From the NCBI GenBank assembly GCA_022616375.1, contig JAKEEW010000326.1, forward strand, positions 1 through 39,216: a DNA stretch of 39,216 nucleotides, written 5' to 3'. The translations under genes were made by a program, and so were the position numbers. The notes beneath the pieces were generated by a model that saw only the letters and a program-made list of their open reading frames with translations, made no database searches and was not told the origin of the DNA. This document shows, piece by piece, positions 14,922 to 35,879 of the stretch. The number at the start of each line of letters is the position of its first letter. Position 1 is the first letter of the stretch. Origin of the DNA: Sporichthyaceae bacterium. Its GTDB lineage: Bacteria > Actinomycetota > Actinomycetes > JAKEEW01.

Positions 14922-16271
14922 CTAGCCGGCCGGAGCTCCCGCGGTGGCATCGGCCCGCGGCGGGGGTGGTCCGGCCGTCAGCGAGGCGTCCTGACCCGAC
15001 CACGGCATCTTGGTCCGGGTGACCGGCTGGCCGACCATCTTCACGTCGATCTTCGCGGCGTAGTCCTCGAGCCGCTGCTTCACGTCGTCGAACGAGGTGC
15101 CGATCAGGATCAGGAACCCGAGGATGTTGTTGCCTTCCGGCGGCCGTTTGATGAGGTCGCCGGGGTGCGCGGTTATCTTCGCCATCAGGGTCTGCTCGGA
15201 GTTGGTCACCTCGTCCGGGACGGTGACGTACTCCACCTCACCGGCCTGGCTGATCAGGCACGTGCCCATCATGTAGACGCCGGTCGGGGAGTAATGCTGC
15301 ACCCGCGGCTTCACCCCGCGGGCCACGTTCATCACCGCGCGGATCGGGCAGTAGTCCGCGGTCACCCGGGCCACCAGGTCGAGGCCGCCACCACCGGGCC
15401 GGATCGCGATCTCGACCAGATGCGGCTTGTCCTGATGGAACCTGATCTCCGCGTGCATGGCGCTGCGGCGCAGCCCCTGGGCGTGCGCGGCCGCCTTGAC
15501 GATCTGCTGGATCTCGGCCATCTGCGCGTCGGTGAGGTAGGTCGGAGCCACGTGCACGTCGTCGTCGAACGTGTCGCCCTCGACCGTGGCCCGGTCCACG
15601 ACCGAGCCGAGGTAGACGTCATCGTCCCAGGCCAGCGCCTCGAAAAGGTGCTCGTGGCCGTCCAGGTAGGACTCGACGAGGAGGCCGTACGGTCCCAGAT
15701 CGAGGCCCTCGGCCTCCATCAGATACCACGACATTCCCTGCATGCCCTTGATGGCGTCGGCCCACCTGACCTCGAGCTCGGCCGGGTCGTCGATCCGGAA
15801 CACGAAGTTGCTGGCCGCGCCGAGCGTGGGCTTGAGCACCACCGGGTAGCCGAAGTCGGCGGCCGCGGCCTTGGCCTCGTCCAGATCCGCGACCAGCCGG
15901 AACTGCGGGATGGGCAGCCCCGCGGCCTGGTAGGCCTGCCGCATCAGCAGTTTGTTGCGGCTCTTGCGCGCCGCGTCCACCCCGACGCTGGGTAGGCCGA
16001 GTGCGTCGGCCACCGCGGCCACGGTCATCACCGCGGACTCGGAGAACGTGAACACCCCGTCGAAACCAACCTCGTCGTGCCACGCGCGCGCCGCCGCGAT
16101 GATCTCGTCGATGTGCTGGGACCCGGCGACCCGATACCGATCCGCCGGCCAGTAGTCCGGATCGCCGACCCCGTTGAGGATGTACAGGTCCGCGCCGAAG
16201 TCCTTCACCTGCTGGTAGCGGGACAGATAGTAGGTGGCGTTCTGGCGCGCCTCCATGCCGAGTAGCTTCAT
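14922..16271 (-). CDS. ATP-grasp ligase A
   Basis: A 449-residue ATP-grasp enzyme, MKLLGMEARQNATYYLSRYQ at its N-terminus. I prefer the ATG at 16271 because GGGGAGGCGGAG lies just upstream; the ATG at 16298 would overlap the cupin's end region and put that site inside the gene. The ATP-grasp fold shows FGYPVVLKPTLGAASNFVF (P-loop-like lid with the ATP-binding lysine), YGLLVESYLDGHEH and the metal-binding HLVEIAIRPGGGGLDLV. Such enzymes activate a carboxylate as acyl-phosphate and join it to an amine, as in the L-amino-acid ligase/BacD and carnosine-synthase groups. It ends an operon with the N-hydroxylase and cupin genes (19 bp after the cupin stop), so its substrate may be the hydrazine product. 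Confidence 0.87.
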   Translation of the reverse strand: MKLLGMEARQNATYYLSRYQQVKDFGADLYILNGVGDPDYWPADRYRVAGSQHIDEIIAAARAWHDEVGFDGVFTFSESAVMTVAAVADALGLPSVGVDAARKSRNKLLMRQAYQAAGLPIPQFRLVADLDEAKAAAADFGYPVVLKPTLGAASNFVFRIDDPAELEVRWADAIKGMQGMSWYLMEAEGLDLGPYGLLVESYLDGHEHLFEALAWDDDVYLGSVVDRATVEGDTFDDDVHVAPTYLTDAQMAEIQQIVKAAAHAQGLRRSAMHAEIRFHQDKPHLVEIAIRPGGGGLDLVARVTADYCPIRAVMNVARGVKPRVQHYSPTGVYMMGTCLISQAGEVEYVTVPDEVTNSEQTLMAKITAHPGDLIKRPPEGNNILGFLILIGTSFDDVKQRLEDYAAKIDVKMVGQPVTRTKMPWSGQDASLTAGPPPPRADATAGAPAG

Positions 16272-16290
16272 GGACTCCGCCTCCCCGAAA

Positions 16291-16662
16291 CTAGCCATCC
16301 GAGGCCGAGGTGTGCCGGGCAGCGAACTTCTCGGTCATCTCGGCGTCCCACCAGACGCTGTAGAACTGGAAGTCGGTGCCCGACTCGTTGACGATCGTGT
16401 GGTTCGTGCCGGGCGGCATGAAGGCCACGTCACCTCTGCTGAACGGGCTGCGCTCGCCATTTGCCTCGAGCACCGCGTCGCCGGAGATAGCGACGAAGAT
16501 CTCGTATTCGTGATGCGAGTGCGGGGTGGACGCCCCGCCCGGCTCGATCACGCACCAGGCCCCCTCGAACGGTGCGTTGATGGCCTCCCACGGCATCAGC
16601 CGCTGGGTCAGCGCACCGTACTCGGCCTTCATGTTGTCCCGGTCCAAGTTGCGAATATCCAC
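16291..16662 (-). CDS. Free-standing cupin, candidate hydrazine-forming (N-N) subunit
   Basis: A 123-residue single-domain cupin. The GTG at 16662 follows GGGAGGAACTG; a longer frame would enter the N-hydroxylase gene. Cupin motif 1 is complete, PHSHHEYEIFVAISG, with metal ligands H48, H50 and E54. Motif 2, GDVAFMPPGTNHTIVN, supplies H88. In known hydrazine synthetases (for example Spb40 of s56-p1 and Tri28 of triacsin biosynthesis) a zinc cupin domain fused to a MetRS-like domain rearranges an aminoacyl ester of N6-hydroxylysine into an N-N bond. Here the cupin is a separate protein, 13 bp downstream of a lysine/ornithine N-hydroxylase, and a MetRS-like protein is encoded at 25908. The role is inferred from this context. 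A plain regulatory or isomerase cupin is the alternative. Confidence 0.8.
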   Translation of the reverse strand: MDIRNLDRDNMKAEYGALTQRLMPWEAINAPFEGAWCVIEPGGASTPHSHHEYEIFVAISGDAVLEANGERSPFSRGDVAFMPPGTNHTIVNESGTDFQFYSVWWDAEMTEKFAARHTSASDG

Positions 16663-16675
16663 CAGTTCCTCCCGG

Positions 16676-17983
16676 TCAGGCCGATGCGGCAACGCTTGAC
16701 AGCAGGGTCGGTTCACTGCGGCTGGCCAGCACGTCGGTGACGATTTCGCCGGCCCTGATGGCAAGCACGCTCATGAGCGAGTCCGCGATCCCGTGGCTGC
16801 CCTCGTTGGTGCCCTGCAGGTAGCAGCCCGCGGTCACGGCGGGTGGGGTCAGCATCCGGTAGGCCCGGCTGACCGCGATCTCGGCCACACCTACCTCGGC
16901 AGCAAGGTTACGGATGATGGTCGGCATGGCCGGCTCGAAGCCGGTGCCGAGCAGCACCAGGTCGCAGGACAGCTCCTCGGTCACCCGGCCCATCTGGTTG
17001 GTCAACGTCAGCATGACGTCGTCGCCCTCCATCCGGGCGCCGGTGACGTCAACCATGGTGATCATCCGAAGCCGTTGGGTGCCGGTGAGCCGCTCCAGGT
17101 ACATCTGCCGGTACAGGCCGTCGAGCATGCCCGGGGTCACCCCGGCGTAGTTGGTCTGGCGCATCTCGTGCAACACGTGCCGGCGCGCCTCGGGTGCAGC
17201 CGAGAAGAACTCGTCGGTGAACGACGGGAAGTACAGCTCGTTGGTGAACTTGCTGGTCTGGTAGTACTCCAGCCCGACCGACCGGATCACCATCGCGCAC
17301 TCTGCCTTGGGGAGGCGCTGGTGGGACTCCCACAGCATCTCGGCGGCGCTCTGCGCGGCCCCGACCACGACGATCCGGTGCGGCGATTCGGGATCCAGGT
17401 CAGCGGTGCGCCAGGAGTACTCGGTGCTGTGCACGAAGCGCTCGCGGGGCAGATCGTGGAACACCTCAGGAATGCGCGCCTCCCGGCCGATCCCGATGAC
17501 CAGGTTGCTCGCTCCGATCGTGGACCCGTCGGCAAGGTGGACCAGCCAGCCGGTGACCTCGCCGCCGCTGGACCGTAACGGTTCGACCCGCTCGCAGCGC
17601 CGCCCGTAGTCCACCCGGACCTTGGTGAGCGAGTCGGCGACCCACTGCAGATAGTCCGAGATCTCCAGCCTAAATGGCAGGAAACTTGCCATATTTACAA
17701 AATCGTTTAACCGGCCCACGGAATGCAGGTAGTTGACGAAGGAGAACGCGCTGCGCGGGTTCCGCAGGGTCACCAGATCCTTCAGGAAAGACACCTGGCT
17801 CTGCGTCCAAGGCAGCATCATCCCGCGCTGCCAGACCACGTTCTCGTGCTGTTCGATGACCAGCGTGCTGCTGGCCAGCTCGGGCGGCGCCAACTCCTCA
17901 ACGGCGACGGCCAGCGCGAGGTTTGCCGGCCCGGCACCAATTGCAAGTAACTCCACCTCTTGGTGATCAAACGCTGCCGTCAC
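16676..17983 (-). CDS. L-lysine N6 / L-ornithine N5 monooxygenase family enzyme
   Basis: A 435-residue flavin N-monooxygenase. The GTG at 17983 follows GAGGAGG at good spacing; the upstream ATG at 18019 lacks one. Motifs in order: FAD-binding GAGPANLALA (residues 16-25), the family block SQVSFLKDLVTLRNPRSAFS with FVNYLHSVGRLNDFVNMASF, NADPH-binding VVVGAAQSAAEML, and the C-terminal VLLGTGFEPA and GSHGIADSLMSVLAIRAGEI. Enzymes of this family hydroxylate the side-chain amine of lysine or ornithine using O2 and NADPH. It leads an operon with a cupin and an ATP-grasp gene, and no siderophore synthetase is nearby. N6-hydroxylysine as the precursor of an N-N bond is therefore more likely than a hydroxamate. 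Lysine versus ornithine cannot be settled by eye. Confidence 0.9.
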   Translation of the reverse strand: MTAAFDHQEVELLAIGAGPANLALAVAVEELAPPELASSTLVIEQHENVVWQRGMMLPWTQSQVSFLKDLVTLRNPRSAFSFVNYLHSVGRLNDFVNMASFLPFRLEISDYLQWVADSLTKVRVDYGRRCERVEPLRSSGGEVTGWLVHLADGSTIGASNLVIGIGREARIPEVFHDLPRERFVHSTEYSWRTADLDPESPHRIVVVGAAQSAAEMLWESHQRLPKAECAMVIRSVGLEYYQTSKFTNELYFPSFTDEFFSAAPEARRHVLHEMRQTNYAGVTPGMLDGLYRQMYLERLTGTQRLRMITMVDVTGARMEGDDVMLTLTNQMGRVTEELSCDLVLLGTGFEPAMPTIIRNLAAEVGVAEIAVSRAYRMLTPPAVTAGCYLQGTNEGSHGIADSLMSVLAIRAGEIVTDVLASRSEPTLLSSVAASA

Positions 17984-18137
17984 CGGGTGTCCTCCTCGTA
18001 GGCGGCGGTAGATGCGCATCGAATGATGTCCGGTAGGACGGGTTCGACACGTGTCGTGGGGTAAGCCAGGCCCGCGAAATCACGCGCACGACTTCCTTCC
18101 GACGAATCGTTGTGCCGCGCACGCGGACGGTAAGTGC

Positions 18138-18296: not shown

Positions 18297-19613
18297 CTAC
18301 CGCTCAGTAGTAATGCCGGCGTCGACGGGTGCGTCGGCACCCGCTGCGGCGTCGGCGCTCGGCACCGCGCCGGAACCGGGTACGGCCGGCAAGCGGCGCG
18401 GATCGCGCACCGAGGCGAGCACGAAGCCGAGCGCGACCACTTCGACGAGCGCGATGAAGATCCAGACCTGGTGCCCGAGTTGGGCGAGCATGATGCCGCC
18501 CACCACCGGACCGACGGCCTGACCGACTCCGAACATGACCTGGAAGCTGCCGATGTAGCGGCCCTTGAGATGTGGCGGTCCGGCCATAGCCGCGTAGGCA
18601 AACGTGGCTGGACCACCGAGAATCTCGCCGAGGGTCCAGATCAGCGTGCCGATGATGATGACGGCCGGCCCCAGCGGCAGGGCGTAGAACGCGACCCCGC
18701 CCGCGATCAGCGCATACGCCAGCGCGATCGAAATCCGCATCGGCCAGGTTTGCGAGACTTTTGTCACCAGCAGCTCGAACATGATGACGATCGCGCCGTT
18801 CAGCGAGACCGCGAGGGTGTACCAGAAGATGGCCACGCCGGCGGCCTGGATGTCGAGCGGAAGCGTGGACAGGTACTGCATGTAGACCGCGACGCCGAGG
18901 AACGCGGCAATCAGGTAGAGCACGTAGCGCCGGTCGCGCAGCACGTCCAGATAGCTCCCGGTCGGCACTGCCGCACCGGCATCGGCGCCGTCCGGGTCCG
19001 GGGCGTGCCTGGTCTTCGCCGGCAGTGCGAACAGCGCGAGGATCGCGTATGCCAGTGCGATCAGCGCCTCGCCCCAGAACAGCAGCGTGTACCGCTCGTC
19101 GTTGAGGTGGTAGAGCGCGTAGCCGATCAGCGGTGCGGCCGTGCTGCCGACGTTGAGCCCGAACCGGTACATCGCGAACATCATGATCTGCCGGTCGTCC
19201 GCGGTGAGCTCGGACAGCAACGTCGCCGAGGCCGGCCGGTAGATCTGGCTGACCAGCCCGACCGCCGCGGCCACGACCAGCAGCAGCGCATAGTTCGGCA
19301 GGTAGAGCAGCGACGCGGTGAACACCGCGGTGCCGGCCATGCTGATCACGGTGGCATTGCGGGCGCCGAGCCGGTCGGCCAGCATCCCGCCGATGAATGT
19401 ACCCGCTACTTCGCCGGCGCCGTAGACGCCGAGCGTGAGGGCCGCTAACTGGACCGAGTAGCCCTGTGAGGTGACGAACAGGACCAGGAAGATGTTCAGG
19501 AACCCGCCGATCCGGTTGATGAACACTCCGAGGAGCATGACCTTCACTGCCATCGGAGCGAGGCGGAAGGTCTCCCAGACCTTGGCGGCAGGTGGGGTGG
19601 TTTCGGTCGCCAT
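18297..19613 (-). CDS. MFS transporter, likely exporter of the cluster product
   Basis: A 438-residue major facilitator with about 12 hydrophobic helices. The first helices (MAVKVMLLGVFINRIGGFLN) are followed by the loop 2-3 signature region GTFIGGMLADRLGARN, typical of MFS drug/H+ antiporters. FALPAKTRHAPDPDG begins the central cytoplasmic loop. The C-terminus is a hydrophilic Ala-rich tail (SADAAAGADAPVDAGITTER). No Shine-Dalgarno is evident before the ATG at 19613, so it may be leaderless or poorly initiated. It lies inside the cluster, divergent from the tandem ATP-grasp-like genes (114 bp apart), which suggests export of the product and self-protection. Confidence 0.87.
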   Translation of the reverse strand: MATETTPPAAKVWETFRLAPMAVKVMLLGVFINRIGGFLNIFLVLFVTSQGYSVQLAALTLGVYGAGEVAGTFIGGMLADRLGARNATVISMAGTAVFTASLLYLPNYALLLVVAAAVGLVSQIYRPASATLLSELTADDRQIMMFAMYRFGLNVGSTAAPLIGYALYHLNDERYTLLFWGEALIALAYAILALFALPAKTRHAPDPDGADAGAAVPTGSYLDVLRDRRYVLYLIAAFLGVAVYMQYLSTLPLDIQAAGVAIFWYTLAVSLNGAIVIMFELLVTKVSQTWPMRISIALAYALIAGGVAFYALPLGPAVIIIGTLIWTLGEILGGPATFAYAAMAGPPHLKGRYIGSFQVMFGVGQAVGPVVGGIMLAQLGHQVWIFIALVEVVALGFVLASVRDPRRLPAVPGSGAVPSADAAAGADAPVDAGITTER

Positions 19614-19727: not shown

Positions 19728-21074
19728 ATGACGGCCAACGCGCTTACCGAGCGATACCTGGCCGAGGTCGCCCGGCGTGGCATGCGGCCGACTGAGCTCA
19801 TCGAGGCCGCACTCGATCCCGAGCTGCGGCTGCCGTGGACGACGTACGAGGGGCGCTGTCTGAGCCGCCCGGTGTTCCTGGAGTACCCGCACTATGTCCG
19901 GCTGGTTGGCGATCTCGAGAACCTGCACGCGGCGCTGACCGACTTACCGCGCCGGTTGTTCGGCGGCGACCTGGCCGCATTCGCCCGCGCGGTGGGGATG
20001 ACCGACGTTCAGGTTGGGGCCATCATGCGGGCCCAGGCGCCGGCGCCCACCCGGTTTGCCCGCGCCGACCTGTATCCCAACGGTTCGGGATTCCAGCTGA
20101 TGGAAATCAACATGGGCAGCACGGTCGGTGGCGGCGACAACGCGATGCTGAATCGCAGCTTCCTGAACCATCCGATGGTCGCCGAGTTCGTTGCCACCAA
20201 CCGGTTGTCGTTCGTGGACACCCTGGCGCAGATCGTGCACACCATCGTGACCGAGTGCCAGGTCCCGGCCGGAACCCGCCCGCTGATGGCAGCGGCCGAC
20301 TGGCCGGCCAGCTTCGACTCGCTGCTGCCGATCCTGCGGTACAGCGCCGAGCAGCTGCGACCGCTGGGCATCGAGATGGTGCCGTGCCATGTCGGTCAAC
20401 TGTCCGCGCGTGACGGTCGGGTGTGGCTCGACGGCCGGCCGGTCGACGTGGTCTACCGGCTGTTCATGATCGAGGACCTGCTCGATCCGCAGGGACCCGC
20501 ACTCATCGAGCCCGTCCTGCGAGCCGCCGAGCGCGGCGAGGTGAAGCTGTTCACTCCGCTGGACGCGGAGCTGTACGGCAGCAAGGGTGCCCTTGCGCTG
20601 CTGTCCGACGAGGCGAACCGGCACCTCTACGACGCCGGTGAGCTGGACAGCTTGGACCGGATCCTGCCGTGGACCCGGATGGTCAGACCGGGTCCGGTCA
20701 CGGTTGACGGCGAACAGGTCGACCTGCTCGAGTTCGCCTTCGCCCAACGCGCTGAACTGATTCTCAAGCCGACCCTGCGATACGGCGGCTTTGGTGTCGT
20801 GCCGGGCTGGCTGGTGGACGCCGGCGAGTGGAGCCGGCAGCTGGCCGCGGCCATGGATCGCCCGTTCGTGCTGCAGCGCCGCATCCGTCCGGAGCCCGAG
20901 CTGTTCCCGGCCGAGCACGGATTGGAGTCGTGGACCCTGATCTGGGGCGCGTTCCTGACCGCGGCCGGATACGGCGGGCAGTACATCCGCGGCACGACCG
21001 ATCCCGACAGTGGTGTCGTCAACATGGCCTCCGGCGCCACCGCGACCTGCTGCTTCCACCAGACCGCGCCCTGA
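19728..21074 (+). CDS. Circularly-permuted-type ATP-grasp-like protein, copy 1
   Basis: A 448-residue protein starting at the ATG at 19728 behind GAGGGGGGCGCCG. I see features of circularly permuted ATP-grasp ligases: FQLMEINMGSTVGGGDNAM (the acidic metal/ATP region usually at the C-terminus of normal ATP-grasps, here early), ELYGSKGALALLSDEANRHL, then AELILKPTLRYGGFGVV with the ATP-binding lysine and FVLQRRIRPEPELF. Such enzymes form amide bonds in small peptides without carriers. Copy 2 follows at 21183 with the same length and most residues identical. The family call is moderately sure; the substrates are unknown. It is divergent from the MFS gene. Confidence 0.75.
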   Translation: MTANALTERYLAEVARRGMRPTELIEAALDPELRLPWTTYEGRCLSRPVFLEYPHYVRLVGDLENLHAALTDLPRRLFGGDLAAFARAVGMTDVQVGAIMRAQAPAPTRFARADLYPNGSGFQLMEINMGSTVGGGDNAMLNRSFLNHPMVAEFVATNRLSFVDTLAQIVHTIVTECQVPAGTRPLMAAADWPASFDSLLPILRYSAEQLRPLGIEMVPCHVGQLSARDGRVWLDGRPVDVVYRLFMIEDLLDPQGPALIEPVLRAAERGEVKLFTPLDAELYGSKGALALLSDEANRHLYDAGELDSLDRILPWTRMVRPGPVTVDGEQVDLLEFAFAQRAELILKPTLRYGGFGVVPGWLVDAGEWSRQLAAAMDRPFVLQRRIRPEPELFPAEHGLESWTLIWGAFLTAAGYGGQYIRGTTDPDSGVVNMASGATATCCFHQTAP

Positions 21075-21182: not shown

Positions 21183-22532
21183 ATGACGCACAACGCGCTC
21201 ACCGAGAAGTACCTCGAGGAGATCGCCCGGCGCGGGGTAGGGCCAACGGAACTCATCGCCACCGCCATGCAGCCCGAGGTGCGGTTGGCTCCGACCACGT
21301 TTCTTGGCCGCTGCCTGAGCCGGCCGGTGTTCCTCGAGTACGCCGACCGGGAGCGGCTCGGCGTCGACCTGGAGAACCTGCATGCCGCCCTGACCGGGCT
21401 GCCCGCACGGCTGTTCGGTGGCGACCTGGCCGCGTTCGCCCGCGCGGTCGGGATGACCGATGCGCAGGTCACCGCAATCATGCGGGGCGGGGGCGAGGCA
21501 CCCACCCGGTTCGCCCGGGCCGATTTCTACCCGAACGGCACCGGGTTCCAGCTCATGGAGATCAACATGGGCAGCACCGCGGGTGGCGGCGACAACGCGG
21601 TGCTCACCCGCGCGTTCCTGACCCACCCGATGCTGGCCGAGTTCGTCGAGGCCAACCAGCTGGCCCACATCGACACGATGGAACAGGTCGCGGACACGTT
21701 GCTGACCGAGAGCAAGGTGCCAAGCGGGATGCGCCCGCTGGTAGCAGCCGCGGACTGGCCGGCCAGCTACGAGAAGCTGGAGCCGACGCTGCGCTACAGC
21801 GCGCAGCAGCTGGCGCCGTTCGGCATCGACATGGTGCCCTGCCATGTCGGGCAGCTGTCCGTGCACGATGGTCGAGTCTGGATCGAAGGCCGCCCGGTCG
21901 ACGTGATCTACCGGGTCTTCATGATCGAGGACCTGCTCGACCCGGTCGGGCCGGAGCTGATCGATCCGGTGCTGCGGGCCGCCGAACGCGGTGAGGTGTC
22001 CATCTTCACCCCGATCGACTCCGAGCTCTACGGCAGCAAGGGCGCGCTCGCCATGCTCTCCGACGAGGCGAACCGGCACCTCTACAGTGCGAACGAACTG
22101 GCCAGCCTGGATCGGATCCTGCCCTGGACCCGGATGGTGCGGCCCGGTTCGGTCACCGTCGAGGGCGAGCGGGTGGAGCTGGCCGACTATGCGGTCGGCG
22201 CGCAGACCGACCTCATCCTCAAGCCGACCGCCTTGCATGCCGGAATGGGTGTGGTGCCCGGTTGGATGGTCGAGCCGGACGAGTGGAAGTCCCAGCTGAC
22301 CGCGGCCATGGACGGTCCGTTCGTGCTCCAGCGCCGGATCCGGCCGGTGCCTGAGCTGTTCCCGGCCCCGGACGGGATGCAGCCGTGGGTGCTGACCTGG
22401 GGTGCGTTCCTGTCCTCCGCCGGATACGCCGGGCAGTTCGTCCGCGGCACCACCGAGCCGGACGGTGGCGTGGTGAACATGGCCACCGGCGCCACCGCCA
22501 CCAGCTGCTTCCACCAAACCGTTCCGACCTAG
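21183..22532 (+). CDS. Circularly-permuted-type ATP-grasp-like protein, copy 2
   Basis: A 449-residue close paralogue of the gene at 19728, collinear from end to end (MTHNALTEKYLEEIARRG; GDLAAFARAVGMTDAQV; FQLMEINMGSTAGGGDNAV; ELYGSKGALAMLSDEANRHL; DLILKPTALHAGMGVV). Start ATG behind GAGGGGCCCGACGA. The differences cluster in the middle (KLFTPLD versus SIFTPID; LRYGGFG versus LHAGMGV; VATNRLSFVDTLAQ versus VEANQLAHIDTMEQ). This is the pattern expected if the two copies now take different acyl or amine substrates. It is convergent with the NTF2-like gene. The fold assignment carries the same caution as copy 1. Confidence 0.75.
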   Translation: MTHNALTEKYLEEIARRGVGPTELIATAMQPEVRLAPTTFLGRCLSRPVFLEYADRERLGVDLENLHAALTGLPARLFGGDLAAFARAVGMTDAQVTAIMRGGGEAPTRFARADFYPNGTGFQLMEINMGSTAGGGDNAVLTRAFLTHPMLAEFVEANQLAHIDTMEQVADTLLTESKVPSGMRPLVAAADWPASYEKLEPTLRYSAQQLAPFGIDMVPCHVGQLSVHDGRVWIEGRPVDVIYRVFMIEDLLDPVGPELIDPVLRAAERGEVSIFTPIDSELYGSKGALAMLSDEANRHLYSANELASLDRILPWTRMVRPGSVTVEGERVELADYAVGAQTDLILKPTALHAGMGVVPGWMVEPDEWKSQLTAAMDGPFVLQRRIRPVPELFPAPDGMQPWVLTWGAFLSSAGYAGQFVRGTTEPDGGVVNMATGATATSCFHQTVPT

Positions 22533-22638: not shown

Positions 22639-22986
22639 CTACTGCAACGGCCACAGACAGGCGTGCACGCAGCGCCAGCCTTCCGGACGCCGCTCGTAGG
22701 TGTCGACGTAGCGGGTGTAACGGCCCTCGGTAACGAAGCTGCGCGCGGAGACCACTGCGGTATTGCCATCGACGTGGATCACGACCTGGTCGATCCCGAT
22801 CGTGGGCAGCGGTGCGCTGTTCACGTTGTCGATGTAGCGCTGTGGTTCCCAGACCTCGCCGGACTTGCCGTCCAGGTACCGGAAGTCCGGGGACATGATC
22901 GGCTCCAGGACCTCCCACTTGCCCTGCCGGAAGGCGTCGATGAACTGCTCGTTGAGCTCGGTCAGTTCCTTGATGTCGCTATCCAC
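22639..22986 (-). CDS. NTF2-like / DUF4440-type protein
   Basis: A 115-residue alpha+beta cone-fold protein. The GTG at 22986 follows GGGAG at about 10 nt. The N-terminal helix TELNEQFIDAFRQGKWEVLE, then MSPDFRYLDGKSGEVW, IHVDGNTAVVSARSF and the closing RRPEGWRCVHACLWPLQ are typical of the SnoaL/DUF4440 group. These small proteins act as cyclases, isomerases or hydrolases, or simply bind ligands, in many biosynthetic clusters. It lies downstream of ATP-grasp B on the same strand but 187 bp away, across the inverted repeat at 23034-23196. It may be a separate unit. No specific activity is predictable. Confidence 0.8.
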   Translation of the reverse strand: MDSDIKELTELNEQFIDAFRQGKWEVLEPIMSPDFRYLDGKSGEVWEPQRYIDNVNSAPLPTIGIDQVVIHVDGNTAVVSARSFVTEGRYTRYVDTYERRPEGWRCVHACLWPLQ

Positions 22987-23033: not shown

Positions 23034-23196
23034 AGGGCTTGTCTCCTGGGTCCTAGCCGGCGTGGATCGGCGGCCCAGACAACGACTGGCCGTGTTGTCG
23101 TCGTCGCCGATAGTTCCACTATCGGCTCCTCCTCCGCCTTGCCATTCGTCCCCTGGCCCGCCGCCCGCATCCGTCAAGACCCAGGAGACAAGCCCT
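23034..23196. repeat. 163-bp element bounded by perfect 19-bp inverted repeats (IR-C)
   Basis: AGGGCTTGTCTCCTGGGTC (23034-23052) is the exact reverse complement of 23178-23196. The right arm encodes the last residues (GLSPG) of ATP-grasp B, whose stop lies inside the element. Long perfect termini with a non-coding centre resemble a MITE-like insertion or a large hairpin. I see no clear target-site duplication. Confidence 0.7.
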
Positions 23197-28399: not shown

Positions 28400-29398
28400 T
28401 TGCGCTATCTGCGAGAGCTGGACTCCACCCACGGCCGTCCCGGCGACTACCAGGTTGCCGAAACCGATGTCGGTGTCGGTTATGCCTCGGCGCACCATGG
28501 CGAGCTTTTGCAAGGCATGTTCTACGACCCGAACGGTCAGCTGCGTCGCGCACTGGTCACGCTGCCGGATCCGCGCCGAGGCAGCCGCGCGGTCTTTCAT
28601 CCGAGCCAGAACCACTGGGGAATCGTCGGCACCCCCGAGCTGATTAAGGTCCGGCGCGCGGCGATCATCGCATTGCGCGAGTTCTCCCGGCATCCGTCCC
28701 CGGCCAAGGGCGGCCAGATCGAGATCGCCAGCAACGTGCCGCGCGGCGTCGGGATGGGCTCGTCGACCAGCGACGTCGCCGCCACCATCCGGGCGGTGGC
28801 CGACTACCACGGAGTGGCGTTATCCCGCGACGAGATCGGCCGGCTGGCCGTGCTCGCCGAGTGCGCGTCGGACTCGATCATGATCGACGACCGGGTGGTG
28901 CTGTTCGCCCATCGCGACGGGGTGGTGCTGGAGACGCTGGGGCACCGGTTGCCACCGATGATCGTGGTCGGCTGCGACACCGCGCCCGGCGCCGTGGTCG
29001 ACACGCTCGGGCTGCAGCCGGCCGAATACAACGACCACGAGATCGGCGCGTTCCAGGTGCTGCGGGCGGCGTTGCGCCGGGCCATCGCGACCGACGACGT
29101 TGCACTGCTCGGCCGAGTCACCACCGCGAGCGCGCGAATCAACCAGCGCTTCCTGCCCAAGCCCTACCTCGAAGCGCTGCTCACGCTGTGCCAGCAGTTC
29201 GAAGGCTGTGGCGTGCAGGTCGCGCACAGCGGCACCGTCGCCGGCCTGATCTTCGATGGGCGCCGGACGGACGTGGAGCCCAGCGTGCGAGCCTGCGTCG
29301 ACCGGATCGAGGCGCTGGGCCTGGAGATCACCGCGATCATCGGGTTCGAGCCGACCACCACCGCGATCGAGATTGGCGCGGCAAGGGTTCCGGCCTGA
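28400..29398 (+). CDS. GHMP kinase, PduX-like (L-threonine/serine kinase type)
   Basis: A 332-residue GHMP-family kinase starting at TTG 28400 with GAGGAAG upstream, 9 bp after the methyltransferase stop. The N-terminal HHGELLQGMFYD and the ATP-binding loop PRGVGMGSSTSDVAA (residues 114-128), then ECASDSIMIDDRVVLF, resemble the PduX L-threonine kinase group. A C-terminal VAHSGTVAGLIFD is the GHMP motif 3. PduX makes L-threonine O-3-phosphate. The next two genes are a cysteine-synthase-like and an argininosuccinate-lyase-like enzyme, which could turn a phosphorylated hydroxy-amino acid into a 2,3-diamino acid. Threonine versus serine cannot be told by eye. Confidence 0.85.
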   Translation: MRYLRELDSTHGRPGDYQVAETDVGVGYASAHHGELLQGMFYDPNGQLRRALVTLPDPRRGSRAVFHPSQNHWGIVGTPELIKVRRAAIIALREFSRHPSPAKGGQIEIASNVPRGVGMGSSTSDVAATIRAVADYHGVALSRDEIGRLAVLAECASDSIMIDDRVVLFAHRDGVVLETLGHRLPPMIVVGCDTAPGAVVDTLGLQPAEYNDHEIGAFQVLRAALRRAIATDDVALLGRVTTASARINQRFLPKPYLEALLTLCQQFEGCGVQVAHSGTVAGLIFDGRRTDVEPSVRACVDRIEALGLEITAIIGFEPTTTAIEIGAARVPA

Positions 29399-30531
29399 TG
29401 AGCATCCGGTCCAGCTATTCCGAGGCCACCGAGGCATACCAGGTTCCGAAGCTGATCAGGCTGGCGCCGAACCTCTACGCCGCGTGCTTCACGCTGATGA
29501 AGATGATCCCGGCCCGCTACATCCTGCGCCGGGCCGAGGTCGAGGGCCGGTTGCCGCCCGGCACGGTGATTGCCGAGACCACGTCCGGCACGTTCGGACT
29601 GGCCCTGGCGATGCAGGGGATGCATCTCGACCGGCAGGTGATCCTGGTCAGTGACCCGGTCATCGACGAGCGGCTGTATCGCCGGCTGACCGATCTGGGT
29701 GCGGTTGTGGACCGGGTCCCGGCCAGTGCGGCCAAGACCGTAGGCGGCTACCAGGCCGCCCGGCTAGCTCGGCTGGAGCAGGTGCGGTCCGAGCATTCGC
29801 ACACGTTCTGGCCGGACCAGTACGGCAACCCGGACAACCCGCGCTCCTACGCCACCGTCGCCGAGCTTCTGCTCGAGTGCCTCGGTCAGGTCGACTGCGT
29901 GGTCGGCACGGTCGGTTCCGGCGGATCCATGTGCGGGACGACTACCTACCTGCGCTCGGTCCTGCCGGAGTGCCGGGCGATCGGGGTGGACGCGCACGCC
30001 AGCGTGTTGTTCGGTCAGCCGGACGGCCCGCGCGAGCTGCGCGGGATGGGGATGAGTCTGCTCCCGGCCAACCTGGACCACCGGATCTTCGACGAGGTGC
30101 ACTGGTGCACTGCCCGGCTGGCCTACGCGGCGACCCGCCAGATGCATCAGCGACACGCGCTGTTCATGGGGCCGACCAGCGGCGCGGCTTACCTGGTGGC
30201 GCGCTGGTGGGCGGCGCAAAACCCGAGTGCGCTGACCGTGGTGCTGCTGCCGGACGAGGGATACCGCTACCAGGACACGGTCTACGACGACGAGTGGCTG
30301 ATGGCCGCCGGGCATCTGGGTGGGTCGATTCCGGCCGAGCCGGTGCTGGTGGCCGATCCGACCCGGCCGGCCGAGGATCCGTGGACCACCTATGACTGGG
30401 CCCGGCGGGATCTGCCCGAGGTGTTGGCCGGCCGGCACACCTCGGCCGAGCCCAGCCCGGTCGGGCCCAGCCCGGTCCGGCCTAGCCCGGTCGGGCCCGG
30501 CTCGGCCGGTTCGGCCCGGGGGATCGGGTGA
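29398..30531 (+). CDS. PLP-dependent cysteine-synthase-like beta-replacement enzyme
   Basis: A 377-residue fold-type II PLP enzyme. Its ATG overlaps the kinase stop (TGATG). The Schiff-base lysine is probably K35 in LMKMIPARYILRRAE, which aligns with the SVKDRPAR motif of relatives but has lost its flanking residues. TTSGTFGLAL matches the substrate loop (TSGNTG) and GTVGSGGSMCGTT the PLP-phosphate loop. Relatives swap a beta leaving group for a nucleophile. After a PduX-like kinase, the expected leaving group is phosphate on threonine or serine and the nucleophile a nitrogen compound such as aspartate. The last 40 residues are low-complexity with three PSPV-x-P units, and the stop overlaps the next gene (GTGA). 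Confidence 0.85.
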   Translation: MSIRSSYSEATEAYQVPKLIRLAPNLYAACFTLMKMIPARYILRRAEVEGRLPPGTVIAETTSGTFGLALAMQGMHLDRQVILVSDPVIDERLYRRLTDLGAVVDRVPASAAKTVGGYQAARLARLEQVRSEHSHTFWPDQYGNPDNPRSYATVAELLLECLGQVDCVVGTVGSGGSMCGTTTYLRSVLPECRAIGVDAHASVLFGQPDGPRELRGMGMSLLPANLDHRIFDEVHWCTARLAYAATRQMHQRHALFMGPTSGAAYLVARWWAAQNPSALTVVLLPDEGYRYQDTVYDDEWLMAAGHLGGSIPAEPVLVADPTRPAEDPWTTYDWARRDLPEVLAGRHTSAEPSPVGPSPVRPSPVGPGSAGSARGIG

Positions 30532-32030
30532 GCGTGCCCGGCGAGCGTGGCACCGGGCGGTTGGTCGACCAGCTCGGGCTCGGCACCAGGCAGGCGGTCT
30601 ACGGCACCCCGACCGCGGCCGAGATCGCGGCCGAGCTGGCTCTCACCGTGCGGGTCGACCAGGCGCACCTGGTGATGCTGGCCGAGCAGCAGATGGTGCC
30701 GGCCGAAGCGGCCGCGGCGCTGCTGCGCTGCATGGCCGAACTGTCCGCGGACCGGTTCCGGGTCCTGCTCGACCGGCCCGTGCCGCGTGGGCTCTACCTG
30801 ATGTACGAGGGATACCTGATCGAGCGGCTCGGCCCGGACATCGGCGGCGTGCTGCACGCCGGCCGCTCCCGCAACGACCTGAAGGCGACCATCACCAGCC
30901 TGCGGCTGCGCGACTGGCTGCTGGACTTCGCCGAGCAGGCGGTCCGGCTGGAGGCGGTGCTGCTGTCCAGGGCCCGGGCCCACCGGTCCGTGGTGATGCC
31001 GATCTACACCCACTTCCAGGCCGCGATGCCGATCAGCTACGGCTACTACCTGCTCGGGGTGGCACTCGCGGTCGGCCGGGACATTGACGCGCTGCGGACC
31101 GCGGCTTCCGGCCTGCAGGTGTGCCCGCTGGGCGCGGGCGCGGTCGCCGGCACCGATCTGCCGATCGACACCGAACGCACCGCTGCGCTGCTCGGCTTCG
31201 CCGCCGGCACCCGGCACGCGCTGGACGCGGTGGCCAGCCGGGATGTCCCGCTGCGGCTGCTCGGCGCGGCCGCGGGGCTAGCGGTGACGTTGAGCCGGCT
31301 GGCCACCGACCTGCAGTTGTGGAGCACCGCCGAGTTCGGCTTCATCCACTTCCCTGACCGGCTGGTCGGCGGCAGCTCGGCGATGCCGCAGAAGCGCAAC
31401 GCGTTTGTCACCGAGCACGTCAGGGCCAAGCCGGGACACGCCATCGGTGGCTGGGCGGCCGCGGCCAGCATGATGGCCGGCACCGCGTTCACGAACTCGA
31501 TCGAGGTCGGCACCGAGGCGGTGGCCGCGCTCTGGCCCGGCCTGCGGGCCGCCGAGCAGTCGGTGCAGCTTGGCCAGGCTCTAGTCAGCGGCGCCAGACC
31601 GGTGCCGGATCGGATGCTGGACCGGGCCGAAACCGGGTTCACCTCGGCCACCTCGGTGGCCAACCGGCTGGTCCGGCATGGGGTGCCGTTCCGGACCGCG
31701 CACCGCATGGTCGGTGAGGCGGTCCGCAAGGCGATCGAGGCGGGGTCTACCAGGCTGGCCGACTTCGGGCCGCCCGGCTGGCTGGACCAGATCGGGCCGG
31801 CCGGGCTCGACCCGCGGGCGCTGGTGGACGCGCACGTCTACGGCGGCGGTCCCGGTGCGTTCGCGGTTCCGTGCGAGCAGGCCGGCGCCGCGTGGCTCGG
31901 CCACCGGCGCTGGCACCAGCGCTGGCGGCGCGAGGTGGCCGATGCCGACGCGGCGCTTGCCGCGGCCGTGGCCAGCCTCGCCGGGCCGGACTACCGGCCC
32001 GCGGTGCGCCGAGCCGGGGAGCCGAAATGA
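30528..32030 (+). CDS. Argininosuccinate lyase/fumarase superfamily lyase
   Basis: A 500-residue member of the aspartase/fumarase superfamily beginning at GTG 30528, overlapping the PLP gene stop. Signatures: GGVLHAGRSRNDLKATITSL, MPIYTHFQAAMPISYGYYLL and the mobile catalytic loop GSSAMPQKRNAFVTEHVRAK (GSS at residues 282-284). It differs from true ArgH in many usually fixed residues (for example QKRNA for KKNP) and has an extra C-terminal region. No other arginine gene is present. In 2,3-diaminobutyrate routes such a lyase eliminates fumarate from an aspartate adduct to leave the free amine. I infer the same here from its place after the kinase and PLP enzyme. Confidence 0.87.
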   Translation: MSVPGERGTGRLVDQLGLGTRQAVYGTPTAAEIAAELALTVRVDQAHLVMLAEQQMVPAEAAAALLRCMAELSADRFRVLLDRPVPRGLYLMYEGYLIERLGPDIGGVLHAGRSRNDLKATITSLRLRDWLLDFAEQAVRLEAVLLSRARAHRSVVMPIYTHFQAAMPISYGYYLLGVALAVGRDIDALRTAASGLQVCPLGAGAVAGTDLPIDTERTAALLGFAAGTRHALDAVASRDVPLRLLGAAAGLAVTLSRLATDLQLWSTAEFGFIHFPDRLVGGSSAMPQKRNAFVTEHVRAKPGHAIGGWAAAASMMAGTAFTNSIEVGTEAVAALWPGLRAAEQSVQLGQALVSGARPVPDRMLDRAETGFTSATSVANRLVRHGVPFRTAHRMVGEAVRKAIEAGSTRLADFGPPGWLDQIGPAGLDPRALVDAHVYGGGPGAFAVPCEQAGAAWLGHRRWHQRWRREVADADAALAAAVASLAGPDYRPAVRRAGEPK

Positions 32031-33271
32031 CCGGCGAGTGGCTGGTCCTGGTGGAGAGCAATACCACCGGATCCGGCCGGCTGTTCTGCGCCGCCGCGCG
32101 CCGGCTGGGACTGCAACCGGTGCTGCTGGCCCGCGACCCCGGCCGATACGGCTACGTCGCCGCCGATCGGATCGATGCCCGGGTGGTCGACACGTCGAGC
32201 CCGGACGCGGTGCGGGCGGCATGTGCCGACCTTCCCGGCCGGATCGCCGGGGTGACCAGCAGCTCGGAGTACTACATCGGGACCGCGGCCGAGGTGGCCG
32301 GTGCGCTGGGCCGGCCGCATCCGGACCCGGACGCGATCCGGTCCTGCCGCAACAAGCACAGCCAGCGCATCCGGCTCCAGCAGGCGGGGGTGCCCGGGCC
32401 GGCGTTCGCCGCCGCGCCACGGGTGCCCGAGGCGGTGGTTGCCGCGATCCGGATCGGCTTGCCGGTGGTGGTCAAGCCGGTGGCCGGATCGGGCTCGATC
32501 GGCACCCGCTCGTGCCGCACGTTGGAGGAGGTGCGGGCCGCGGCGAGCGCGGTGCTCGACACCGACCCGGCCGATCTCGCCCTCCCGCCGCAACCGGAGG
32601 TGATGGTCGAGGCGCAGCTGGACGGTGCCGAATACTCGGTGGAGACCCTGGACGACCAGGTCGTTGCCGTGATCAGGAAGCGGCTCGGGCCGGAACCGTA
32701 CTTTCTCGAGACCGGGCACGACTTCCCGGCCCCGCTCGATCCGGCCGAGCGGGCCGCGATCGGCGAGATCGCGGTGGCTGCGTTGCGGGCGCTCGGGCTC
32801 GGCTGGGGCGCCGCGCACGTCGAGGTCCGGGCCGGTGCGGTGGGTCCGCGGATCGTCGAGGTCAACCCGCGGCTGGCCGGCGGGATGATCCCGCGCATGA
32901 TCCAGGAGGCGCTCGGCGTTGACCTCATCTTCCAGGTGGTCGCGAAGGCGGCCGGCCGGGCCGAGCCGCCGCAGCCGACCAGGTCGCGGGCCGCATCGAT
33001 CCGGTTCCTGGTGGCGCCGGCGTCCGGGCGGCTGGTCGAGGTGGCGGGCATGTCCGCGGCGCAGCGGCTGCCCGGCGTGGTGGAGGTAGGGCTGACCTGC
33101 CAACCGGGGCAGGACGTGGTGATCCGCCATTCGTTCCAGGATCGGCTCGGTTACGTCATCGCTTCGGCTGCGGACGGTAACGTCGCAGCACAGGCCGCCG
33201 AGGACGGGGTGCGGGCACTCGAGGCGCGGATCGCGCCGGCTTCGGTGATAGCGGAAGGTTTCCTGCGCTGA
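32027..33271 (+). CDS. ATP-grasp ligase C
   Basis: A 414-residue ATP-grasp ligase with its ATG overlapping the lyase stop (ATGA). The start is MTGEWLVLVESNTTGSGRLF. Motifs: SCRNKHSQRIRLQQAGVPGP, IGLPVVVKPVAGSGSIGTRS (ATP-binding lysine and Gly-rich lid), PEVMVEAQLDGAEYSVETL and the metal site PRIVEVNPRLAGGMIPRMI. The closest functional analogues I recognise are L-amino-acid ligases and argininosuccinate-type carboxylate-amine ligases of small peptide pathways. Because it is coupled to the diamino-acid cassette, it may attach that amino acid. This is context only. Confidence 0.87.
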   Translation: MTGEWLVLVESNTTGSGRLFCAAARRLGLQPVLLARDPGRYGYVAADRIDARVVDTSSPDAVRAACADLPGRIAGVTSSSEYYIGTAAEVAGALGRPHPDPDAIRSCRNKHSQRIRLQQAGVPGPAFAAAPRVPEAVVAAIRIGLPVVVKPVAGSGSIGTRSCRTLEEVRAAASAVLDTDPADLALPPQPEVMVEAQLDGAEYSVETLDDQVVAVIRKRLGPEPYFLETGHDFPAPLDPAERAAIGEIAVAALRALGLGWGAAHVEVRAGAVGPRIVEVNPRLAGGMIPRMIQEALGVDLIFQVVAKAAGRAEPPQPTRSRAASIRFLVAPASGRLVEVAGMSAAQRLPGVVEVGLTCQPGQDVVIRHSFQDRLGYVIASAADGNVAAQAAEDGVRALEARIAPASVIAEGFLR

Positions 33272-34020
33272 TGGGACTTGAACACAGTGGCCGTACGCAT
33301 CGGCTGGACTGGGCAGATGCCTCGGTCCGAGAGTGGGACTGCGCCGTGGTGTGGTCCGACCCGAACGACCCGGAAGCCGGCATCGTGCTCGACCGATCCG
33401 CGTTCTACCCCGGTGGCGGCGGACAGCCGCCCGACCACGGCGTGCTGCTCTGGCAGGGGGTCCAGACCAGAATCGTCGGCACCCGCAAGAGCGAGGACGA
33501 CCTGTTCCTGCTGCCCGCGCCGGGCGATCCGGTGCCGCCGGCCGGCACCGCCGTGACCGGGGCGCTGGACGACGAGCGGCGCAGCACGCTCATGCGCACC
33601 CACTCCGGCCTGCACGTGCTCTGCGGCACCGTGTTCCGGGACTTCGGCGCGCTGGTGACCGGCGGCAACATGGAGCCGGGCGAAGCGCGGATGGACTTCA
33701 ACCTGCCGGACATCCCGCCCGGCTTCAAGCAGACCCTGGAGGACGCGGTGAACGTCGAGATCACCGCGGACCGGCCGATCGAGGTCCGCTGGCTGCCCCG
33801 AGCCGAGGCGCTGGCGATCCCGGACATCGTGCGCACCCAGGACCGGTTTCCGCCCGAGATGGAGCAGATGCGGGTGGTCGACATCGTCGGCCTGGACGCG
33901 CAGGCGGACGGCGGCACACACGTGGCCTCGACCAAGCAGATCGGCCAGATCCAGGTGGTCAAGGTGGACAACAAGGGCCGGCAGAACCGCCGGGTGCGGA
34001 TCAGGCTGGTGAGTGAGTGA
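33271..34020 (+). CDS. AlaX-like alanyl-tRNA editing domain protein
   Basis: A 249-residue protein overlapping the ATP-grasp C stop by one base (TGATG). It has the AlaRS editing-domain order: AFYPGGGGQPPDHG, then the zinc motif THSGLHVL with H111 and H115, a GEARMDFN strand and, near the end, DGGTHVASTKQIGQIQVVKV. In most AlaX and AlaRS proteins the last motif begins with a zinc-binding cysteine (CGGTH). Here it is D213, with H217 retained. AlaX proteins hydrolyse mischarged Ser- or Gly-tRNA(Ala). Possible roles are self-protection against a product misread by tRNA synthetases, or handling of an aminoacyl-tRNA or aminoacyl ester intermediate. Confidence 0.85.
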   Translation: MGLEHSGRTHRLDWADASVREWDCAVVWSDPNDPEAGIVLDRSAFYPGGGGQPPDHGVLLWQGVQTRIVGTRKSEDDLFLLPAPGDPVPPAGTAVTGALDDERRSTLMRTHSGLHVLCGTVFRDFGALVTGGNMEPGEARMDFNLPDIPPGFKQTLEDAVNVEITADRPIEVRWLPRAEALAIPDIVRTQDRFPPEMEQMRVVDIVGLDAQADGGTHVASTKQIGQIQVVKVDNKGRQNRRVRIRLVSE

Positions 34021-35879
34021 CCGGTACCTCGGTGGCCATCGTCGGGCTCGGCTCTCGCGGGCTCAGCGTGCTCGAACGCGTGGTCACGCTGTCCCGCACG
34101 ACCGCGGCGACCACCGGAGGGGTCCGGGTGGAGCTGATCGACCCGGACTGCGACGGCGCCGGGGTGCACGGCACCGGGCAGCCCGACTATCTGCTGCTCA
34201 ACACCACCTGCGGGCAGGTCTCGATGTTCCCCGATCCGCCGTCGGTCGGCGACGACCTGGCCGGATCGGGTCCGAGCCTGTACGAGTGGGTGACCGGGCG
34301 CGGGTTACGGATCGGCGAGGACGGCTTCACCGTCGGCCCGAGCGGCCGGGCGATTCGGCCCACCGACTTCTTACCGCGCCGGGTGTTGGGGGAGTACCTC
34401 GGCTGGTTCCTGCGACACGTGCTGGCCGCAGCGCCTTCGCATCTGCAGGTGACCATGCACCGGACCACTGCGGTCGACATCCGGTCCGAACTGGATGGGT
34501 CACTAGCCATCGAGCTGGCCGGCGGATCCGAGGTGCAGGTCGGCTATGCGTTCCTGACCACCGGATACACGCCTAACGCGGCAACTGGCACCGGACCCGA
34601 CCCGGGCAGCCGGATCATCCCGGCGCCCTACCCGTTGCCGGAGCAGCTGGGCCTGGTCGCCCCGGCCGAGACGGTGGCGATCGGCGGGTTCGGCTTGTCC
34701 GCGATGGACCTGCTGTCCAGCCTGACCGTCGGTCGCGGCGGCCGGTTCGTGCCGGCGCCGGACTCACCGGCCGCGCCGCCCGCGTACTTCCCGAGCGGGC
34801 GGGAGCCGCGGGTGCTGATGTTCGCCCGGTCCGGCGTGCCGTGCCGGGCCCGGCCACTGGTGACCCAGTTCGGCCCCAAATACCGGCCGGTGGTCCTCAC
34901 GACCGCGCAGATCGACCGACTCCGGGCGGCCCGAGGTGGCCCGCTGGACTTCGACGCCGACGTGCTGCCGCTGGTGTTCACCGAGATGCGGATCGCCTAC
35001 CGGCGATGCCAGGCCCGCTGCACCGGCACGCCGGCGGCGCAGGTGCTCGAGCAGGCGCTGGCCGGCGCGGCCGGCCCGGCCGAGATCGAGCGGCTGCTCG
35101 ACGAGCTGGATGCCAGACTCGGCCGGTTCGATCCGGCGGCCACGTTCGACGGCACGTCAGGGATGGCGCTCGACGATCGCGACGCCTACCAGGGCTGGCT
35201 GGCTGAGGTGCTGCGCGAGGACCTGGCTGAAGGGGTGCTCGGGTTCGCCGGCAGCCCGGTCAAGGCGGGCCTGGACATCCTGCGCGACCTGCGCGACACG
35301 ATCCGCTACATCGTCGACTTCGGCGGGCTCACTGATGCCTCGCTCGAGGTGTTCAACGGGACAACGGTGCCGCTGATGAACCGCGCCGTGGTGGGACCGC
35401 AGTTCGAACGGCACACCGAGCTGCTCGCGCTGATGGCGGCCGGCATCGTCAGCGTGCCGTTCGGTCCGGCTCCCAAGGTCAGCTGGGACGGCGAGGCCGG
35501 GCGGTGGACGATCGCGTCGACCCGGTTGGGTGTCCCGCACCGCGAGACCGCGGACTGGCTGGTGTCCGGCCACGTCGACCTGCCCGCGGTCGAGTCCTCG
35601 CTCAGCCCGCTGATCCGCACCCTGCACCGCAACGGGTGGATCCGGCCGTTCCGGGCGGACAGCCGTTACGTGAGCGGTATCGACGTCGACGCCGACCAGC
35701 ATCCGGTGGACGCGTCCGGGCGTTCGCAGTCGCGGCTGTGGGTGCTCGGCCCGATCTGCGAAGGCGCCACGTTCTACAACAACCTGGTCCCGTCACCCGG
35801 GGTGTACTCCCGACCGATCGCGGATGCGCACCGGTGCGTGACCGCGATGTTCGCCGCCGACCGGGTTCCGGTCGGCTAG
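34017..35879 (+). CDS. FAD/NAD(P)-binding oxidoreductase (PF13454-like)
   Basis: A 620-residue flavoprotein. The GTG at 34017 overlaps the AlaX stop (GTGA), so it ends the forward operon. The N-terminus SVAIVGLGSRGLSVLERVV is an FAD-binding Rossmann motif, and DYLLLNTTCGQVSMFPDPPS fits the NAD_binding_9 group. A second dinucleotide site is VAIGGFGLSAMDLLSSLTVG. LWVLGPICEGATFYNNLVPSPGVYSRP is the conserved C-terminal FAD contact of this family. Such proteins occur in several natural-product clusters as hydroxylases or dehydrogenases with largely unproven roles. The last residues (DRVPVG) and the stop lie in the first of two tandem hairpin repeats (35855-35914). Confidence 0.82.
   Translation: MTGTSVAIVGLGSRGLSVLERVVTLSRTTAATTGGVRVELIDPDCDGAGVHGTGQPDYLLLNTTCGQVSMFPDPPSVGDDLAGSGPSLYEWVTGRGLRIGEDGFTVGPSGRAIRPTDFLPRRVLGEYLGWFLRHVLAAAPSHLQVTMHRTTAVDIRSELDGSLAIELAGGSEVQVGYAFLTTGYTPNAATGTGPDPGSRIIPAPYPLPEQLGLVAPAETVAIGGFGLSAMDLLSSLTVGRGGRFVPAPDSPAAPPAYFPSGREPRVLMFARSGVPCRARPLVTQFGPKYRPVVLTTAQIDRLRAARGGPLDFDADVLPLVFTEMRIAYRRCQARCTGTPAAQVLEQALAGAAGPAEIERLLDELDARLGRFDPAATFDGTSGMALDDRDAYQGWLAEVLREDLAEGVLGFAGSPVKAGLDILRDLRDTIRYIVDFGGLTDASLEVFNGTTVPLMNRAVVGPQFERHTELLALMAAGIVSVPFGPAPKVSWDGEAGRWTIASTRLGVPHRETADWLVSGHVDLPAVESSLSPLIRTLHRNGWIRPFRADSRYVSGIDVDADQHPVDASGRSQSRLWVLGPICEGATFYNNLVPSPGVYSRPIADAHRCVTAMFAADRVPVG

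Follow-up and report, generated by a model that had tools for sequence, protein, structure and literature searches.

A predicted hydrazine-forming gene cluster with five ATP-grasp proteins and a discordant MetRS-like protein in a Sporichthyaceae bacterium

The window examined here, a stretch of 39,216 nt from a Sporichthyaceae bacterium, is a whole contig (JAKEEW010000326.1, C686 in our numbering) of a draft genome of 4.64 Mb in 971 contigs. Between 14.9 and 35.9 kb it holds 17 genes in four transcription blocks, which are a compact actinobacterial gene cluster and which probably, with chances somewhat better than even, make a small peptide-like metabolite that contains a hydrazine and is put together by ATP-grasp enzymes. 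N-N bonds are rare in nature and of chemical value. What is unusual here is the exchanged or strongly diverged methionyl-tRNA synthetase-like (MetRS-like) gatekeeper, an operon of diamino-acid type unseen in other loci with this core, and the duplication of AlaX. Genes were called by GC-frame analysis together with Pfam and NCBIfam scans, with the following result:

14922..16298, minus strand: ATP-grasp A, L-amino-acid-ligase type (PF13535 4e-18, LAL_C2 1e-11; PDB BL00235, BacD)
16291..16662, minus strand: standalone cupin, predicted zinc-dependent N-N-forming rearrangement enzyme (ligand pattern; 4rd7, 5uqp)
16676..18019, minus strand: flavin-dependent lysine/ornithine N-hydroxylase (PF13434 9e-87; PDB KtzI 1e-71, MbtG 2e-70)
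18297..19613, minus strand: major facilitator superfamily (MFS) exporter (PF07690 2e-42)
19728..21074, plus strand: circularly permuted ATP-grasp 1, tandem paralogue (profile matches GSP_synth, CP_ATPgrasp_2, PDB 3n6x, 9cjn)
21183..22532, plus strand: circularly permuted ATP-grasp 2, tandem paralogue (same profile basis as paralogue 1)
22639..22986, minus strand: SnoaL-like small protein (PF14534 3e-10, SnoaL_3 3e-8)
23174..24460, minus strand: ATP-grasp B, L-amino-acid-ligase type (PF13535 3e-13)
24798..25904, minus strand: DAO-like FAD oxidase, predicted to cleave a C-N bond of the hydrazine conjugate (PF01266 1e-20)
25908..27287, minus strand: MetRS-like amino-acid-activating enzyme, predicted hydrazine synthetase partner (tRNA-synt_1g E 3e-52; PDB 9l8v E 6e-60)
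27674..28390, plus strand: S-adenosylmethionine-dependent methyltransferase (PF08241 2e-16)
28400..29398, plus strand: GHMP kinase, predicted threonine (or serine/homoserine) kinase (PF00288 9e-15)
29398..30531, plus strand: pyridoxal phosphate (PLP) enzyme, SbnA/cysteine synthase family (PF00291 3e-30; PLP_SbnA_fam 3e-58; PDB SbnA 1e-30)
30528..32030, plus strand: argininosuccinate-lyase-like (ASL-like) enzyme, predicted fumarate-releasing step (PF00206 4e-37; argH 2e-86; GSSAMPQKRN signature)
32027..33271, plus strand: ATP-grasp C, L-amino-acid-ligase type (LAL_C2 1e-18; corresponds to the N-terminal half of the ATP-grasp/lyase fusion model NF002563)
33271..34020, plus strand: AlaX-type tRNA-editing protein, extra copy, candidate self-protection (NF040865 1e-65)
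34017..35879, plus strand: FAD-NAD(P)-binding (NAD_binding_9) flavoprotein (PF13454 9e-31; nearest homologues adjoin SbnA-like or ATP-grasp genes)

The first block is read from the minus strand and comprises the MFS exporter, the N-hydroxylase, the cupin and ATP-grasp A. The last three are tightly packed: the cupin starts with GTG 13 bases past the stop of the hydroxylase, and its own stop is overlapped by ATP-grasp A, whose true start is perhaps the ATG at 16271. The second block (plus) consists of the two tandem paralogues, the third (minus) of the MetRS-like protein, the DAO-like oxidase, ATP-grasp B and the SnoaL protein, and the fourth (plus) of the remaining seven genes. The hydroxylase, cupin, MetRS-like protein, DAO-like oxidase, methyltransferase, AlaX and MFS protein all lie where the original prediction, made from the letters alone, had placed them (Pfam/NCBIfam), and the five ATP-grasp proteins and the cassette of diamino-acid type, which it had also named, are supported by family scans and by a profile of the tandem pair. 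The claim that non-ribosomal peptide synthetase (NRPS), polyketide synthase and carrier protein are all missing holds as well, since Pfam scans of 30 open reading frames gave no condensation, adenylation, ketosynthase or carrier domain and no PP-binding match lies on the contig, the genome's only such matches being on other contigs. Misassignment of the contig was considered and rejected: its tetranucleotide correlation is 0.70-0.88 with contigs of its own genome and 0.62-0.76 with other actinobacteria, the former being better on the whole. The nearest relatives among the compared genomes share only the class with the source genome.

The case for the proposed chemistry begins with the cupin. 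Among solved structures it is closest to 4rd7 (E 1e-43) and plu4264, and the structure of RHS1, 5uqp, is matched as well (E 4e-8). The zinc cupins PyrN and RHS1 rearrange an O-acyl hydroxylamine to a hydrazine, with an essential Glu (Zhao et al. 2021, PMC8664883); their ligands are His50, His52, Glu56 and His90 in PyrN, and Asp63, His65, Glu69 and His103 in RHS1 (PMC8664883). The window cupin keeps every one of these metal-ligand positions with exact spacing, in the form H-x-H-x3-E-x33-H (PHSHHEYE, with the His 34 residues past the Glu), and thus agrees with the general pattern (H/D)-x-H-x3-E. The N-hydroxylase, a flavin enzyme of the Lys/Orn family, ends 13 bp before the cupin start and is an ordinary member of the tree of its group. 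Pairs of a standalone cupin and a MetRS-like protein occur naturally and have been proven functional (PMC8664883).

A scan with a cupin alignment over one genome per species (84,980 species) gave 51 loci, all actinobacterial except two from Photorhabdus, and genes were counted as co-occurring within 10 kb on either side of the cupin. The hydroxylase is found in 51 of the 51 loci, the MetRS-like protein in 50, ATP-grasp B in 43, the MFS protein in 23, ATP-grasp A in 17 and DAO homologues in 13; identity reaches 61% for both ATP-grasp B and the exporter and is 58-66% for ATP-grasp A. Since the hydroxylase accompanies the cupin in every locus and the MetRS-like protein in all except one, the co-occurrence of the three is not due to chance, and the survey points to a broad actinobacterial hydrazine/ATP-grasp family, for whose roughly 50 hydroxylase/cupin/MetRS-like/ATP-grasp loci no characterised or published product was found in the open literature searched. 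Loci with ATP-grasp A (group A) come from Streptosporangium, Actinomadura, several Streptomyces, Dactylosporangium roseum, Micromonospora and others, and those without it (group B) from Nocardia, S. scabiei and Micromonospora. To judge from its hydroxylase, cupin and ATP-grasps A and B, the window clearly belongs with group A: mean identity between window and group A, against that within group A, is 60/66% for ATP-grasp A, 57/59% for the hydroxylase and 50/52% for ATP-grasp B, and the DAO-like oxidase is on average 42% identical to its homologues in group A. In the members of group A that were read, further genes encode a DDAH-like protein, a small uncharacterised protein (YDGRRF...), a solute-binding protein of family 5 and a sodium/proton exchanger; the first and the last two of these are lacking in the window. 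Another genome of the same class (G261, locus L030) contains a distant MetRS-like, a cupin-like, a DAO-like, an ATP-grasp and a permuted ATP-grasp gene within about 8 kb, which is a second and very different type of hydrazine/ATP-grasp cluster.

The odd member of the core is the MetRS-like protein. In the relatives it is usually encoded directly after the cupin, whereas in the window it lies 9 kb away in another operon. Its identity to group A is 31%, while the group A proteins are 61% identical to one another and 49% to those of group B, and a place inside the group A clade is rejected by the approximately unbiased (AU) test (p = 2e-6). The hydroxylase and the cupin, unlike the MetRS-like protein, have ordinary branch lengths within the group. 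All 49 of the 49 members of the co-travelling MetRS clade have four Cys, the other four of the eight zinc Cys being lost, and AGP after the HIGH motif; the window protein has all eight Cys and LSGP, as have those of three other loci (L011, L012 and L013). Its identity to the homologues found is 37% at most, and its pocket-region residues differ from all those compared. No paper was found in a literature search on the MetRS-like PDB entries 9l8v and 9vq4. The window's hydroxylase and ATP-grasp B are closer to group A than group A is to group B, and its MetRS-like protein is far from both; this pattern of identities favours replacement from another hydrazine synthetase lineage over extreme acceleration of an early branch, and the cluster looks mosaic. 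The MetRS-like partner has been reported to set which amino acid enters the N-N step; for related enzymes it is Gly, Glu, Ala, Ser or Tyr (PMC8664883, PMC11705231).

The five ATP-grasp proteins fall into three of L-amino-acid-ligase type (14922, 23174 and 32027) and the tandem circularly permuted pair (19728/21183), whose members are 72% identical to each other in amino acids. Taken singly, neither member of the pair matches anything in Pfam or NCBIfam; an alignment of 16 homologues matches the GSP_synth (1.7e-5) and CP_ATPgrasp models, the glutathionylspermidine synthase structure 3n6x in the PDB and, weakly, Cp1B, a pseudodipeptide-forming ATP-grasp of E-64 biosynthesis (PMC12568646). The profile of the pair contains the conserved RxD, ExN, LKP..GG and Q motifs of circularly permuted ATP-grasp proteins. 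A structure predicted from the two sequences had a mean pLDDT (predicted local distance difference test) of 31.5 and was not used for fold searches. Judged from gene neighbourhoods, the combination of a permuted ATP-grasp with the hydrazine core is recurrent, because Streptomyces homologues sit about 12 kb from hydrazine genes, as on the same contig in Streptomyces LaPpAH-108. In Streptomyces MspMP-M5 (L200) the gene order, read directly, places such a protein with the hydroxylase, cupin, MetRS-like protein and ATP-grasp A, and in S. bicolor its proximity to the hydrazine genes is deduced from contig numbering. Two nearby permuted ATP-grasp genes and a homologue of ATP-grasp C were also seen in Micromonospora rosaria (L201), on a contig that is apparently not the hydrazine one.

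The fourth block joins the GHMP kinase, the SbnA-like PLP enzyme and the ASL-like lyase in one operon with ATP-grasp C, AlaX and the NAD_binding_9 flavoprotein. These are the kinds of enzyme that would be expected to turn a phosphorylated hydroxy amino acid and aspartate into a diamino acid and fumarate. The best guess for the product is 2,3-diaminobutyrate made from threonine, by analogy with known precedents and with gausemycin. In the cluster of this 2,3-diaminobutyrate-containing compound there are likewise genes for a cysteine synthase and an argininosuccinate lyase (PMC12471526). Homologues of the kinase with 43-49% identity were found, seven of the eight neighbourhoods read also hold a PALP, and kinase and PLP enzyme pairs recur in actinobacteria. 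The cluster AlaX is 69% identical to a second copy, on contig C198 of its own genome, and to the AlaX of relatives that have a single copy; of 59 other genomes sampled, 24 have one match each. Its active-site motifs are intact (HSGLH for HxxxH, DGGTH for (C/D)GGTH), as in the chromosomal copies. The D in the position of C does not mark an altered active site: all 20 other copies checked have the same motif. As a duplicated housekeeping editing factor lying inside a biosynthetic cluster, this AlaX suggests itself as a candidate for self-protection against mis-charging, for example by a threonine analogue, which is a simple and testable idea. A search of the literature brought nothing direct on a cupin/MetRS cluster accompanied by AlaX, or on a published diaminobutyrate cassette in open text.

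From these genes we infer the following pathway. The flavoenzyme would hydroxylate the side-chain amine of lysine (or ornithine). Onto this hydroxylamine the MetRS-like protein would esterify an amino acid that it has activated with ATP, and the standalone zinc cupin would rearrange the ester with formation of the N-N bond. The DAO-like oxidase is then predicted to cut a C-N bond and release the free hydrazino acid; the side of cleavage differs between the known enzymes Apy10 and Spb39. In parallel, the kinase, the SbnA-like enzyme and the ASL-like enzyme would convert threonine most likely to 2,3-diaminobutyrate, with aspartate as nitrogen donor and fumarate as leaving product. The five ATP-grasp enzymes would form amide or hydrazide bonds, the methyltransferase and the flavoprotein would tailor the product and the MFS protein would export it, while AlaX may shield the producer from mis-charging of tRNA by the pathway amino acid. 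The general reading of the original prediction, a hydrazine unit and a diamino acid joined with no NRPS, is judged to be the best one. A phylogenetic test had been proposed for it, which would speak against it if the cupin, MetRS-like and DAO-like proteins fell away from the hydrazine synthetase clades; the cupin and the MetRS-like protein do not refute it, as both group with proteins of hydrazine-synthetase type, though in different subclades.

Several points weigh against the pathway as drawn. The AU test does not reject a position sister to groups A and B together, neither for the MetRS-like protein (p = 0.19) nor for the hydroxylase (p = 0.31), and accelerated evolution of an early branch is a possible explanation of the MetRS divergence. 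The partnership of the cupin and the MetRS-like protein is presumed, as their genes stand in different operons. The nearest structures of the hydroxylase (KtzI and MbtG) cover both Lys and Orn, so that the substrate may be either; 2,3-diaminobutyrate is named partly by analogy with pacidamycin and friulimicin and with the gausemycin cluster; and the two sub-pathways might simply adjoin on the contig without forming one pathway. A bolder form of the proposal is possible but tentative: the MetRS-like protein would have been exchanged while the cupin, hydroxylase and ATP-grasps were kept, a new hydrazino amino acid would be joined by ATP-grasp enzymes to 2,3-diaminobutyrate, and the duplicated AlaX would strip the mis-charged tRNA. 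If true, such a natural exchange, with a cupin unchanged in kind, would show that this chemistry is recombinable and would offer a ready test case; with a foreign-looking gatekeeper the product should differ from those of the relatives.

It can also be supposed that the cluster is another hydrazinoacetate (glycine) pathway of the s56-p1, triacsin or azaserine kind, with ATP-grasp ligases in place of carrier-protein chemistry. The same four enzyme families, DAO included, are present; the azaserine cluster has an ATP-grasp (AzsJ) and an MFS gene beside its N-hydroxylase (PMC10445470); and the MetRS type with eight Cys and LSGP is shared with locus L013, where a fused cupin-MetRS has hydroxylase, ATP-grasp, MFS and DAO-like neighbours. 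In the window, however, cupin and MetRS-like protein are unfused, no carrier protein was found on the contig, and family scans showed no succinyltransferase or AMP ligase. Hydrazinoacetate, the product originally named, requires a glycine-specific MetRS-like protein, and glycine specificity is unreadable from the sequence of a protein so distant in identity and pocket. Because such proteins are reported to set the amino acid and the gatekeeper here is discordant, lying outside the clade that travels with the cupin, hydrazinoacetate cannot be assumed, and we regard this explanation as unlikely. Nor are the four families here specifically of the s56-p1/triacsin kind, to which they had been assigned, with its fused cupin-MetRS and carrier-protein chemistry; they form the split type with ATP-grasps, common in actinobacteria.

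Improbable, in our opinion, is the explanation that two independent pathways happen to adjoin, one of hydrazine/ATP-grasp type at 14.9-27.3 kb and one of diamino-acid/ATP-grasp/AlaX type at 27.7-35.9 kb. The halves are indeed divergent operons, none of the other 51 hydrazine loci has the GHMP/PALP/AlaX part, and by contig and position the kinase is linked to hydrazine genes in none of 30 core-bearing genomes, only four of which have a related kinase. Nevertheless, the halves share ATP-grasp chemistry, fewer than 400 bases separate the divergent operons, one exporter serves the whole, and in locus L044 lyase-like and NAD_binding_9 genes lie within 10 kb of hydrazine genes.

That the MetRS-like protein is a genuine, spare or resistance methionyl-tRNA synthetase, and that no hydrazine is made, is hardly credible and is rejected: it keeps the HIGH (LHIGHLSGPY) and KMSKS-type (KFSTSRNH) motifs and eight zinc Cys, yet tRNA-synt_1g is its sole Pfam match with no anticodon-binding domain, its metG score in NCBIfam (151) falls short of the cut-off of 336, whereas two other genes of the genome exceed it, GHLSGPY and FSTSRNHALW are typical of the hydrazine-synthetase type and not of true MetRS, and a cupin with the proven ligand pattern adjoins the N-hydroxylase. 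The two passing genes (G000:C553 and G000:C74; L092 and L093), one of them at a contig end, may be explained by a second MetRS or by contamination, which is 5.8% for this draft genome.

Two tandem proteins of the ScyD/ScyE family (NHL-type) are encoded just upstream of the cluster at 12237-14840 and are probably outside it. Farther upstream, on the minus strand at 6264-9505, an M36 metallopeptidase catalytic domain (6264-7802) and an FTP propeptide (7493-9505) stand in two overlapping frames, possibly due to a frameshift in one gene.

The original prediction knew of no described cluster with exactly this combination of genes, and this stands in so far as no relative with the same full set was found in the collections searched; the core itself is commoner than was thought (51 loci). 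Closest in kind are the split cupin/MetRS-like systems, namely the RHS1 pair of Rhodococcus jostii, Afn8/Afn9 of albofungin and Dpn5-Dpn6, which share with the window a separate zinc cupin and MetRS-like protein, an N6-hydroxylase and the spacing of the cupin ligands (PMC8664883, PMC11705231). In comparison to these systems the two partners in the window belong to different operons and apparently have different histories, ATP-grasp ligases are present, and the saccharopine-dehydrogenase-like gene that was used to find RHS1 was not seen in the window. The negamycin and fosfazinomycin clusters likewise combine hydrazine chemistry with ATP-grasp ligases, but their N-N bond is made from nitrite by a heme enzyme (KinJ/NegJ), in place of the cupin/MetRS-like pair (PMC12154649). 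The fused pathways that lead to hydrazinoacetate, those of s56-p1 (Spb38-40), triacsin (Tri26-28), azaserine (AzsL-N) and N-nitroglycine (NngKLM) use the same N-hydroxylase, cupin, MetRS-like and DAO-like families, whereas the window has cupin and MetRS-like protein as separate genes (16291-16662 and 25908-27287) and neither carrier protein nor NRPS. Cassettes for 2,3-diaminobutyrate of the pacidamycin and friulimicin types consist of an SbnA/cysteine-synthase-like PLP enzyme, an ASL-like enzyme and a kinase, and they feed NRPSs; the cassette in the window shares its operon with an ATP-grasp, AlaX and a flavoprotein. Finally, the tandem pair matches the profiles of Cp1B-type and glutathionylspermidine-synthase-type ATP-grasps weakly, has no close characterised relative and differs from both by its tandem duplication.

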